From the NCBI GenBank assembly GCA_017466525.1, contig JAFTTY010000033.1, positions 1-61,758 on the forward strand: 61,758 nt of DNA, in the 5' to 3' direction. Under the pieces are notes generated by a model. That model was not told the DNA's origin. It made no database searches and saw nothing but the letters and a program-made list of their open reading frames with translations. Below are positions 56,696 through 60,462 of this stretch, one piece after another; the stretch's first letter is position 1; each line of letters opens with the position of its first letter. The stretch is from Alphaproteobacteria bacterium. GTDB lineage: Bacteria; Pseudomonadota; Alphaproteobacteria; Rs-D84. The translations under genes and the position numbers were made by a program.

Positions 56696-57814
56696 ATGGA
56701 ATTTTCAGTATTTCGTCAGGTCTTGATACGTGCGCTGGGACATATGCAGTCCATCGTAGAAAAGCGCGCAACACTGCCGATATTGATGAATGTTAAGATA
56801 GAGGTTGCAGACGATTTAATCTTGTCGGCAACAAATGTTGATTTGGAATTGGTTGAACATGTTGCTGCTGATATTACATTGGGTGGCAAGGTGACTGTGC
56901 CTGTTCAGATGTTGTATGATATTGTTCGTAAATTGCCAGACGATGCAGAAATTTCTTTTAAGCAGTCGGGCGATCAATTGGTTGTTTCCAGTGGGCGTGC
57001 GGTTTTCCGTTTGCCAACATTGCCGGCGGAAAATTTCCCGGCCATGGCGGGTAGTAATCTGACGACCAAGTTTCAGATGACAACAGGTGACTTGGCACAT
57101 TTGATTAATCAGACGAAATTTGCAATTCCAACAGATGATGTGCGTTATCATTTGGGGGGAATTTATTTCCATATCGCAGATGATTCTGGTGAAAAGAAAC
57201 TGACGGCGGTTGCCACAGACGCCCAGCGTTTGGCGCTATGTGCAATACCGGCACCGGCGGGCAGTGCAGAAATGCCATCTGTGATTTTACCACGTCGTGT
57301 AATTGGCGAATTGTCAAAGTTGCTGGAAGATGCAAATGTAGACGATGTTATGGTTGAATTGTCTGATACCAAGGCACGTTTCACAGTTGGCGCCGCAACA
57401 TTGACCAGCAAGTTGGTTGATGCGCAATATCCAAACTATCGTGTTGTGATTCCAAATGGCAATGACAAGATTGCAATCCTGGACAGAAAACAGTTTATTA
57501 ATGCGGTTGACTTGGTGTCTGTTGCCAGTGTTGACAAGACAAAGTCTGTTCAATTGACATTCAGTATGAATAAATTGGTTATTAATGCGTCCAGTCCAGA
57601 TGCAGGTACCGCAACCCAGGAATTAGACATTGAATATAATGGTGACAGTTCATTCACGGTTGTCTTTAATGTAAAATTCTTGTTGGATGTCGCGGGTCAG
57701 GTCGAAGGTGAAAAGTTCCAGATGGAAATGCAGGATCCATTGGCACCGACCAAGATTAATTCAACGGACAAGAATACAGATGCGTTATATGTATTGATGC
57801 CAATGCGCATGTAA
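56696..57814 (+). CDS. dnaN: DNA polymerase III beta sliding clamp
   Basis: 372 aa, three repeated clamp domains. MEFSVFRQVLIRALGHMQSIVEKRATLPILMN, IELVEHVAADI, KLPDDAEI, FAIPTDDVRYHLGGIYF, ATDAQRLALC and LDRKQFINAVDLVSVASVDKTKSVQL, ending in the clamp-typical ALYVLMPMRM. The ribosome-binding site (ACAGGAG) is good. Immediately after the stop starts the first of two near-identical non-coding modules. Confidence 0.96.
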   Translation: MEFSVFRQVLIRALGHMQSIVEKRATLPILMNVKIEVADDLILSATNVDLELVEHVAADITLGGKVTVPVQMLYDIVRKLPDDAEISFKQSGDQLVVSSGRAVFRLPTLPAENFPAMAGSNLTTKFQMTTGDLAHLINQTKFAIPTDDVRYHLGGIYFHIADDSGEKKLTAVATDAQRLALCAIPAPAGSAEMPSVILPRRVIGELSKLLEDANVDDVMVELSDTKARFTVGAATLTSKLVDAQYPNYRVVIPNGNDKIAILDRKQFINAVDLVSVASVDKTKSVQLTFSMNKLVINASSPDAGTATQELDIEYNGDSSFTVVFNVKFLLDVAGQVEGEKFQMEMQDPLAPTKINSTDKNTDALYVLMPMRM

Positions 57815-58002
57815 AAAATAAAAAATTAAATATAATAATTCATCTAAAAACAAATCGGGAATCTCATGTAGCGTCTGTACACTACTATTCCCGCTTTGCT
57901 TTTATCTAAATCATTCTATTTAATTTTCGCATGGCAAGGGGTGTGGTGGCGCCGGCTCATGTAGCGTCTGTACATTACGCCGGTGTTTTTGGTTGTATCT
58001 AA
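57815..58002 (+). repeat. Twin-hairpin non-coding module, copy 1 (after dnaN)
   Basis: 188 bp starting at the base after the dnaN stop. Two hairpins: the first stem CGGGAAT/ATTCCCG (57855-57893), the second stem CGCCGGC/GCCGGTG (about 57949-57984). Both enclose CTCATGTAGCGTCTGTACA followed by (C/T)TAC, itself folding as GTAG/CTAC. The second hairpin is followed by a T run. It is about 95% identical to the module at 59322. Likely a structured RNA or a tandem terminator. Confidence 0.7.
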
Positions 58003-58090
58003 CTCATTCTATTTATTTGTTTTTTTGTCTGGGGGTGGGGCAATAAATTGTGGCATAGAATAAAAAATCCCGCCGTCTGGCGGAGTCTGG

Positions 58091-58118
58091 TTGCAATTTG
58101 GATTTTTTATGGTATTAT
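58091..58118 (+). promoter_or_regulatory. Promoter of ppa
   Basis: TTGCAA and TATTAT with a 16-bp spacer, 30 bp before the start codon. Just upstream is a CCGCC/GGCGG hairpin (58070-58083). Confidence 0.55.
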
Positions 58119-58147
58119 TTTGTCAATAATTAGTTAAGAGGTTTTTT

Positions 58148-58693
58148 ATGACACTTGAAAAATTGGCACCAGGTAAATTGCCGCCTAAAAAAATGAATGC
58201 GATTATTGAAATTCCTGAAAATGGGCATGTAAAATATGAAATTGATAAAGAAACTGGCCTGTTAAAGGTAGACAGAATTTTGCACGCGCCAATGGCGTAT
58301 CCAGCGAACTATGGTTATTTCCCGGGAACCTTGGGTGATGATGGCGACCCGTTGGATTGTGTGGTTGTTTGTAATGCGCCGCTGCGTCCAGGTGTTTTGA
58401 TTGAGGTTCGGCCAATCGGTGCATTGTTGATGGAAGATCAGGCAGGTGGTGATGAAAAAATCATCTGTGTGCCACGTGATAAAATTGATCCGTATTATGA
58501 AAAAATAGAATTTATCGAACAATTGCCAGAAATTCTGCGTTCTAAAATTGAATACTTTTTCTTGCATTATAAGGATTTGCAGTCAAATGCCTGGTCGCGT
58601 GTAAAGGGGTGGGCAGATAGAGAGACGGCAGATAAATTAATTATGGACAGTATTGATAGATATTGGGCGCGTAAACGTGAAGAAGGACAATAA
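58148..58693 (+). CDS. ppa: Inorganic pyrophosphatase (family I)
   Basis: 181 aa. Hydrolyses PPi to drive biosynthesis. The signature DDGDPLDCVVV holds the metal-binding Asp residues; APMAYPANYGYFPGTLGDDGDP and IEYFFLHYKDLQ are typical. Start ATG 58148 with GAGG upstream. It lies between the two twin-hairpin modules together with efp. Confidence 0.96.
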   Translation: MTLEKLAPGKLPPKKMNAIIEIPENGHVKYEIDKETGLLKVDRILHAPMAYPANYGYFPGTLGDDGDPLDCVVVCNAPLRPGVLIEVRPIGALLMEDQAGGDEKIICVPRDKIDPYYEKIEFIEQLPEILRSKIEYFFLHYKDLQSNAWSRVKGWADRETADKLIMDSIDRYWARKREEGQ

Positions 58694-58758
58694 GTCCTTG
58701 CGTTGTGCAGTCTTATCCGTATAATCATTATCGGTTTTTAAAGAAAAGAGGTAAATAA

Positions 58759-59328
58759 ATGGCATCTTATATTGCAAATGATATGCGTGTTGGTTGGGTG
58801 ATTTCGCATAATGGTAAACGTTATTCTGTTACATCTATTACCAAGGTTAAGCCGGGCAAGGGTGGCGCGTTTGTTCAGGCGGACCTGCGTGATATTGATT
58901 CTGGGAACAAGGGTGGTGACCGTTGGCGTGCAGAAGATAAAGTTGAAAAGTTGATGGTCGAAGATTTTGATTGCCAATATCTGTATGCAGATGGTACAGA
59001 TGCCTTCTTTATGAATTTGTCTGATTATGAACAGTTTACAATGCCAGTAGATTCATTGGGTGAAGCGATGAAATTCTTGGCGCCGGAAATGACGGTAAAG
59101 GCAAACTTTGTTGAAGGTCAGCCTGTATCAATTTCTTTGCCAAAGACAGTTGTTGCGGTTGTTGAAGAAACAGAACCTGCGTTAAAAGGTCAGACTGTTT
59201 CGGGCAGTGGTGGTAAACCTGCAATCTTGGACAATGGTGTTCGTGTTCAGGTTCCTGTGTTTATCGAACAAGGCGAAAAGATTGTTGTGAATACTGAGAC
59301 CTTGGAATACGTCGAACGCGCAAAATAA
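58759..59328 (+). CDS. efp: Translation elongation factor P
   Basis: 189 aa. Relieves ribosome stalling at polyproline. KOW-like domain I with KPGKGGAFVQADLRD (the Lys in PGKGG is the usual modification site), OB domain II with YLYADGTDAFFMNLSDYEQ, and domain III ending in GEKIVVNTETLEYVERAK. Ribosome-binding site AAAGAGG. Its stop codon is inside the second twin-hairpin module. Confidence 0.95.
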   Translation: MASYIANDMRVGWVISHNGKRYSVTSITKVKPGKGGAFVQADLRDIDSGNKGGDRWRAEDKVEKLMVEDFDCQYLYADGTDAFFMNLSDYEQFTMPVDSLGEAMKFLAPEMTVKANFVEGQPVSISLPKTVVAVVEETEPALKGQTVSGSGGKPAILDNGVRVQVPVFIEQGEKIVVNTETLEYVERAK

Positions 59329-59510
59329 AAAATTAAATATAATAATTCATCTAAAAACAAATCGGGAATCTCATGTAGCGTCTGTACACTACGATTCCCG
59401 CTTTGTTTTTATCTAAATCATTCTATTTAATTTTTCCCATGGCAAGGGGTGTGGTGGCGTCGGCTCATGTAGCGTCTGTACACTACGCCGGTGTTTTTGG
59501 TTGTATCTAA
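59322..59510 (+). repeat. Twin-hairpin non-coding module, copy 2 (after efp)
   Basis: Near-identical to 57815-58002. The first hairpin differs only at an unpaired base next to the inner CTAC. In the second hairpin the outer stem reads CGTCGGC/GCCGGTG (C to T makes U-G instead of C-G) and the inner GTAG/CTAC replaces GTAG/TTAC. The module begins seven bases before the efp stop ends and sits between efp and the convergent fba gene. Confidence 0.7.
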
Positions 59511-59517
59511 TTTATTT

Positions 59518-60462
59518 TTATAATTTATTTTCGCTGCCCATTATGTCTTTGATTTCATCCAGGCATATTTGTGTCATTGTTTGGCGGGCGCGATTTAGAT
59601 AATCACGTGGGTTGAAGTTCGATGGATTTTCTGACAGGGATTTGCGTACTGCGGCGGTAAAGCCCAGACGCAGGTCGCTGTCTACATTAATTTTGCAAAT
59701 ATTCATTTTTGTTGCGCGGCGCAGTTGTATTGTGTCGATGCCACGTGTGCCGGACATTTTGCCACCGAATTCATTTATAGTTGTGACCAGTTTTTGTGGT
59801 ATGTTTGATGCACCGTGTAATACCAATGGAAATCCGGGCAGGCGTTGTGCAACGTCGGCCAATATGTCAAATCTTAATTCTTCGTTGTCGGATTTGCGTT
59901 TATAGGCGCCGTGGCTGGTGCCGATGGCGATGGCCAGGGAATCGATGTCGGTTGCGTTTACAAATTTTTCTACGTCACCTGGGTTGGTGTAAGATGATGT
60001 TTCGCCAAATGTATTTTCGTCTTCGATGCCGGCCAGGGTGCCAAGTTCAGCCTCTACGGATACATTGTGTTTGTGGGCAAATTCAGCGACTTGTTGGCTA
60101 AGTTTAATATTTTCGTCAAAGGGCAGTTTGCTGGCATCAATCATGACAGATGAAAAGCCTAATTCGATTGCGTGTTTGCATGCTTCAAAACTGCCACCAT
60201 GGTCCAGGTGTAGTGCGACTTGATTTTTTGTGTTTATATTTGCGCCGCGCATCATGCCGATTAACATGTCGTCACCCATGTATTTTAGGGCAGATTCTGA
60301 TACGGCTAAAATTACGGGGCTGTTTGCCAGGCGGGCAGCGTCCAGAATGGCGGTCAGTGTTTCCATGTTATAGAAGTTAAATGCAGGTATTGCATAACCG
60401 CCGGTAATTGCGTCGGCAAACATTTGTTTTGTGTTTACTAATCCCATGTCTGAATACGTCAT
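59518..60462 (-). CDS. Class II fructose-bisphosphate aldolase (FbaA/GatY-type)
   Basis: 314 aa Zn-dependent aldolase. ALHLDHGGSFEACKHAIELGFSSVMIDAS holds the metal His and catalytic Asp; GTLAGIEDENT, GTSHGAYK (second His) and LVLHGASNIPQK (third His), and KMNICKINVDSDLRLGFTAAVRK (phosphate binding) follow. Substrate is fructose-1,6-bisphosphate or tagatose-1,6-bisphosphate, not resolved. AAGGAAGGC precedes ATG 60462. Single gene, convergent with efp; its stop lies seven bases after module copy 2. Confidence 0.9.
   Translation of the reverse strand: MTYSDMGLVNTKQMFADAITGGYAIPAFNFYNMETLTAILDAARLANSPVILAVSESALKYMGDDMLIGMMRGANINTKNQVALHLDHGGSFEACKHAIELGFSSVMIDASKLPFDENIKLSQQVAEFAHKHNVSVEAELGTLAGIEDENTFGETSSYTNPGDVEKFVNATDIDSLAIAIGTSHGAYKRKSDNEELRFDILADVAQRLPGFPLVLHGASNIPQKLVTTINEFGGKMSGTRGIDTIQLRRATKMNICKINVDSDLRLGFTAAVRKSLSENPSNFNPRDYLNRARQTMTQICLDEIKDIMGSENKL

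Follow-up and report, generated by a model that had tools for sequence, protein, structure and literature searches.

The window analysed here is a 61,758-nucleotide stretch of an alphaproteobacterial genome, and two of its genes are followed by the same hairpin module. The first gene is a 372-aa ORF on the + strand (56696..57814) ending in MPMRM, which we take to be dnaN from reading its C-terminus. The second is a 189-aa ORF on the + strand (58759..59328), encoding elongation factor P (efp), whose orthologue is present in 57 of 59 relatives. Between them lies a 181-aa ORF at 58148, presumably inorganic pyrophosphatase-like, and a minus-strand site resembling an intrinsic terminator is found at 58069-58084, between this ORF and dnaN. 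The efp module is followed by a convergent 314-aa ORF (59518-60462), which lies 8 nt past the module and is presumably fructose-bisphosphate aldolase-like. An Rfam cmscan of the window returned only two tRNAs, and the hairpin matched no family above the gathering score.

The original prediction described a duplicated block of about 188 bp behind dnaN and efp, with twin hairpins in each copy. The duplication is real: positions 57815-58015 and 59322-59520 align with 191 identities in 202 columns and 4 gap positions, and the first ~188 bp are six substitutions and one indel apart. The efp block, placed over the stop codon, does overlap it, but actually starts in the last efp codon and the stop (AAATAA); these bases pair with the right arm in many related copies. 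The 19-mer CTCATGTAGCGTCTGTACA occurs at 57863, 57956, 59370 and 59464, all on the + strand, giving four copies of the inner core, two per block. Both blocks do hold two hairpins. However, the first is only the core of an element of about 105 nt, in which two further paired blocks (an A/T-rich outer helix and a middle helix) surround the core; the second is real, but short, and of the left arm it retains the inner part alone. The large hairpin folds on the + strand with z of -6 to -9 against shuffles.

Behind dnaN, the full element (109 nt, 57821..57929) docks on the + strand gene, scores 98.5 bits on the + strand with the covariance model described below, and folds better on the minus strand. 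Its apex core CTCATGTAGCGTCTGTACACT (57863..57883, +) was delimited by pattern match and column conservation. A tail or linker follows (57930..57944, +), which together with the preceding bases forms GCATGGCAAGGGG; this motif recurs behind many elements, and 49 of 175 right flanks have CAAGG in their first 60 nt. The short second unit (57945..58015, +) consists of the inner left arm, the core and a right-arm remnant (TATCTAACTCATTCTATTTA), and was recognised by a partial model match (57950-57985, 30.1 bits) and by its fold. Behind efp, the full element (109 nt, 59328..59436) scores 105.1 bits on the + strand, and again the minus strand folds better. Its short second unit (59453..59510, +) was recognised by a partial model match (59458-59493, 31.5 bits) and by alignment to the dnaN copy.

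A genome-wide search for the internal 19-mer and a covariance model had been suggested with the original prediction, and both were carried out. In the element's own 0.94-Mb genome, the 19-mer core has 12 matches at up to 3 mismatches, and the reversed-pattern control has none. At up to 1 mismatch the core was found in 15 of 59 relatives, every one in the same genus. Searching the exact core against 84,980 species genomes yielded 113 stretches, nearly all titled as Alphaproteobacteria MAGs from animal guts; one was Candidatus Enterousia. No match to the core was found in the IMG/VR viral contigs. The covariance model was built from 35 diverse copies; within the genus it matched 88 of 115 species, and within the family 11 of 13 genera. 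There are up to 39 matches per genome, and the sites are fewer, as the palindrome also matches the reverse strand; the near-complete genome G096 has 17 distinct sites. Copy number ranges from 1 to 30 or more across genomes, and 27 of the 115 genus genomes have no element. In the other genera the arms differ but the design is retained, with a TCRTGTA-N-TACACT type of apex. In the order beyond the family, matches were found in two genomes only, G035 (three) and G049 (one), both from other families, and the element may thus predate the family. A literature search on this hairpin family found no description. The stop-codon-docked hairpin repeats are a new, undescribed and large family.

The full unit is an imperfect hairpin of about 105 nt. 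Its A/T-rich outer helix (AAATAAATT/AATTTATTT or another matching pair) is followed by a second helix, by ATCT facing ATCT and by a middle helix that varies, whereas the apex is nearly invariant. Short units stand in tandem behind the full unit at a spacing of ~80-105 bp, many with the tail CCCAGTGCAAGGGG, and some units are hybrids whose left and right arms come from different types. Covariation was examined with RNAalifold on a MAFFT alignment of the 35 sequences. Compensatory changes, on both sides of the pair, were found in 32 of 36 pairs, a level reached by 0 of 500 shuffles; pairing was 93.3% versus 67.4% in shuffled alignments, and the covariation score 0.647 versus 0.174. Sliding the alignment by 1-3 columns abolished the covariation. 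Selection on the folded structure is therefore strongly supported by covariation, and a mere pair of recently duplicated copies without covariation, which would have spoken against the original prediction, is not what was found. Within the apex core, C/T in column 1 covaries with A/G in column 20 (C..A 118 and T..G 53 of 218), which might reflect a non-Watson-Crick contact, C.A and U.G being alike in shape.

The elements dock at stop codons. Where the upstream gene is clear (about 110 arrays), the apex follows the stop by 30-53 nt on the sense strand, which puts the start of the 5' arm at the stop, and the element is always on the strand of the upstream gene. All 17 sites of G096 are at gene 3' ends; the distance to the stop is -12 to +6 nt for 16 of them, and the remaining one is inside the end of an ORF. 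An ungapped test of outer-arm extension showed that the outer helix extends to the stop in 46 of 100 elements. Before the stop, 174 paired bases were observed versus 42 expected using the codons of other genes, an excess partly accounted for by ORFs that run into elements. The host genes, many of them housekeeping genes, include efp, dnaN, dnaA, rpsM, rpsR, rpoA, groEL, ftsK and leuS, as well as addB, yebC, trxB, secB, carD, clpA-like, fabF-like and outer-membrane protein genes; the names of efp, dnaN, rpoA and the outer-membrane proteins are presumed from reading. The open frame through the efp copy raised the possibility of SECIS-like readthrough; this was rejected because an in-frame stop comes early in the dnaN copy.

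Sites with and without an element are sharply distinct, also inside operons, and the rpsM-rpsK spacer is the cleanest case. When empty, it reads TAA, 7-9 nt and GGTAGAGATTAACAC; when filled, it reads TAA, the ~105-nt element and AATAAGGTAGAG. Of 20 species of the genus that were compared, 8 have the filled form. At these junctions the element replaces the 7-9 nt spacer, and no target-site duplication was resolved; the outer arms, which in a conventional MITE would be constant terminal inverted repeats, vary between copies. Orthologues at the rpsM site also show compensatory change in place (AGCG/CGCT, AACG/CGTT, GATG/CATC). In species without the element behind efp, an ordinary terminator lies directly behind the gene; in several species with it, an ordinary terminator follows the element.

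Comparison of the two strands showed that the bottom strand, opposite to the gene, folds far better. It is more stable in 35 of 35 diverse elements and in 158 of 191 genus copies (DNA and RNA parameters), and in 23 of 23 elements from other genomes, mostly of other genera (DNA parameters). The alignment fold by RNAalifold is -49.3 kcal/mol for the bottom strand versus -33.1 kcal/mol for the top. In the window, the RNA energies are -46.0 (minus) versus -31.8 kcal/mol (plus) for the efp element, and -42.4 (minus) versus -23.3 kcal/mol (plus) for the dnaN element. The ratio of G.U to A.C is 95:25 on the bottom strand and 26:29 on the top strand (16:16 in its middle stems). The facing ATCT/ATCT becomes AGAT/AGAT on the bottom strand, a tandem G.A step in which the near-invariant TC/TC mismatch turns into GA/GA. 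An earlier reading of no RNA or single-stranded DNA polarity, based on the similar G.U and A.C counts of the top strand, was overturned by folding the complement. It is therefore the fold of this opposite strand that has been preserved, which disfavours both a sense 3'UTR RNA and a terminator. The proposed selection on RNA structure thus holds for the folded structure, but the + strand is the poorer-folding one, and a small RNA or regulator-binding RNA on the + strand is disfavoured because the preserved pairing is that of the bottom strand. Hairpins behind genes can be misread as 3'UTR RNAs or terminators unless both strands are tested. Promoter-like sites (10/12 or better) on the bottom strand showed no enrichment, with one in 175 right flanks versus 21 on the top strand; this makes single-stranded DNA more likely than RNA.

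The elements are also oriented to replication. GC skew is positive on the strand of the element at 131 of 131 loci tested across species; these loci overlap and share ancestry, and do not represent 131 independent events. In G096 (contigs C1, 489 kb; C2, 370 kb; C3, 40 kb), all 17 sites are on the minus strand at C2:14-221 kb and C3:37 kb, which belong to one chromosome arm. GC skew in this arm is strongly negative, and GC3 skew has the same sign in genes of both strands, so the skew is replicational. With 150 leading and 72 lagging genes in C2:0-240 kb, strand-blind placement has P = 0.002, and the absence of elements from the other strongly skewed stretch of G096 has P = 0.0004; both values are simple binomials that ignore gene function and shared ancestry. 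About 95 of the ~115 cross-species arrays map to genes in the same arm and strand of G096. G103 is one contig of 1 Mb that shows two ordinary arms; its three elements all lie in one of them, on the leading strand. About 440 kb of G096 (C1:180-489 kb, C2:240-370 kb) is almost without GC skew, against ~460 kb with strong skew. G103, of the same genus, has two ordinary arms, and the notion of a second chromosome arm that is never skewed was dropped on this ground.

Copies appear to spread within genomes. Middle stems are at least 90% identical in 14.6% of within-genome pairs from different genes, versus 1.9% of pairs between genomes. A nearest neighbour from the same genome is five times commoner than expected, and one from the same gene site 2.7 times commoner, so within-genome copying and site inheritance both occur. 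The search for a mobilising enzyme identified none. Y1 transposases (PF01797) were found in 2 of 115 genus genomes, and in none of the element's own genome, G096 or the element-rich genomes. Tyrosine recombinases (PF00589) number just two in the own genome, both of Xer size. No integron integrase (IntI) was found in it, an absence that is not absolute in a genome 93% complete. Of the G096 proteins picked by reverse transcriptase or HUH motifs, the eight examined with Pfam were ordinary enzymes, transporters or a regulator, and neither protein type was confirmed among them.

Covariation, bottom-strand polarity, docking at stops, strand and arm bias, empty and filled sites and within-genome copies together suggest a mobile or copied DNA hairpin. 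Rather than a transcription terminator, the element is probably mobile DNA of a new type that resembles integron sites. The mobile repeat among the original options fits best, given the clean empty and filled sites, the near-identical copies within genomes and the arrays. We put at close to an even chance the fuller reading that these are non-autonomous palindromic DNA elements, which act as a folded single strand and spread within the genome behind the stops of genes co-directional with the replication fork. The acting form would be the strand opposite to the upstream gene, which is the leading-strand template. A recombinase or a replication or repair process might recognise the bottom-strand hairpin through its near-invariant apex and facing GA/GA steps. 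Copies would then settle just behind the stops of genes running with the fork, where docking may limit gene damage. Copies in the leading-strand orientation may be the survivors because their recognised strand does not lie on the lagging-strand template, an explanation also proposed for attC. Several points count against mobile DNA: recurrence at the same genes and the compensatory change at rpsM also fit a functional host element; mutation with hairpin-templated repair could yield arm complementarity without selection; no target-site duplication was resolved; and the enzyme searches above identified no mobilising enzyme.

The two RNA readings differ in the strand that they use. A structured antisense RNA, transcribed from the bottom strand by its own promoter or by read-through and acting in trans or on the mRNA 3' end, seems rather unlikely. 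The G.U excess of the bottom strand (95:25) and the near-invariant tandem G.A step look RNA-like, and a convergent downstream gene is present at about half of the sites (60 of 146 arrays). However, promoter-like sites on that strand are limited to the single right flank noted above, and no read-through is expected at the other half, where the downstream gene is co-directional. A sense 3'UTR hairpin (REP-like), protecting or processing the upstream mRNA within operons too, is less plausible again. The element is always sense and at the stop codon, it stands behind rpsM, rpsR, rpoA, groEL, efp and dnaN, and a stable RNA hairpin would form; but the sense strand folds worse without a G.U excess over A.C (26:29; middle stems 16:16), and an RNA function leaves unexplained both the confinement to one arm and the absence from lagging-strand genes.

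That confinement in G096 and the strand lock to replication (131/131) would suit a cis-acting DNA site for chromosome organisation or replication, related to gyrase or the fork and kept by selection in one arm, as would the recurrence at the same genes and the location of orthologous sites mostly in the same arm across species. This is nevertheless quite improbable: 27 of 115 otherwise similar genomes lack the element, copy number varies from 1 to 30 or more, and the other strongly skewed stretch of G096 has none. A lineage-specific transcription terminator, one of the original options in its tandem form, is very hard to sustain. Hairpins at gene ends, T-rich right flanks and the 60 arrays of 146 between convergent genes would agree with it, but no + strand intrinsic terminator was called in 57600-59700, which includes both blocks. 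The outermost helix is A/T-rich, unlike a GC-rich hairpin with an immediate T run; the element sits between co-transcribed ribosomal genes (rpsM-rpsK); and canonical terminators stand after it in several species and in its place in empty alleles.

Among known systems, the element would work most like an integron attC site, but is not one by the box and integrase tests. Both are imperfect hairpins (here ~105 nt) whose structure is conserved more than the sequence, located behind the stop codon of a same-strand gene, with a bottom strand that folds. In sedentary chromosomal integrons, it is the leading-strand template that carries the attC bottom strands (PMC5371416), and the orientation of the element to replication matches this. 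However, the hairpin base has no GTTRRRY/RYYYAAC boxes and no AAC/GTT pair, and its A/T-rich outer arms vary (AAATAAATT/AATTTATTT among them). The apex is conserved, whereas the terminal structure of attC is variable, and the elements are scattered behind core genes at dispersed loci without a cassette array or attI. It is conceivable but doubtful that this is a dispersed counterpart of the integron, related or analogous to it, that does without an integrase: core genes would carry attC-like bottom-strand hairpins at their stops, copied from gene to gene along one arm by a single-strand DNA process with a putative new enzyme.

REP/REPIN (RAYT) sequences are likewise palindromic, intergenic, clustered and often touching stops, and GTAG is present in many element apices. 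REPs are 20-40 bp long with GTAG at one end (PMC3733652), unlike the ~105-nt element, where GTAG is apical and not conserved across subfamilies. Its arms covary, its orientation is fixed, and element-rich genomes lack a Y1 transposase. The element is not a REP by size, tag and transposase. The pneumococcal BOX, Rickettsia palindromic and Neisseria Correia elements are also dispersed palindromes of ~100 bp in modular arrays, and some modular palindromic repeats apparently have no dedicated transposase (PMC3733652, PMC2229807). Rickettsia palindromic elements have CGTC at one end, whereas the ends here are A/T-rich and variable. To our knowledge, BOX, Rickettsia and Correia repeats have not been described as locked to stops, gene sense and the leading strand. 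The CS-6 motif of ssoA single-strand origins in rolling-circle plasmids resembles TAGCGT, which is contained in the loop of the main subfamily. This reading was rejected because the motif is missing from many subfamilies (GTAACTT, GTATCAT, GTACC and others); the element is also chromosomal and dispersed.

Small palindromic repeats are usually thought to settle harmlessly and to face either way. The hundreds of copies in this bacterial family follow exact rules: a start at the stop codon, an orientation with both the gene and the leading strand and, in the best genome, a place in one chromosome arm. They offer a stringent test of ideas on the movement and survival of single-stranded DNA hairpins, and perhaps on their action at replication forks.

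Two minor observations were made at individual sites. A 223-aa ORF (L241:16744-17474, minus) enters an element for ~45 nt and ends at the TAG of its apex CATGTAG; the element apparently provides a new C-terminus, or the gene is frameshifted. Upstream of rpsK, a conserved block of ~35 nt (GGTAGAGATTAACACGATAGTTAATTGAAGACATC) is present in the 20 genus species compared, and is a candidate ribosomal-protein leader or regulatory site.
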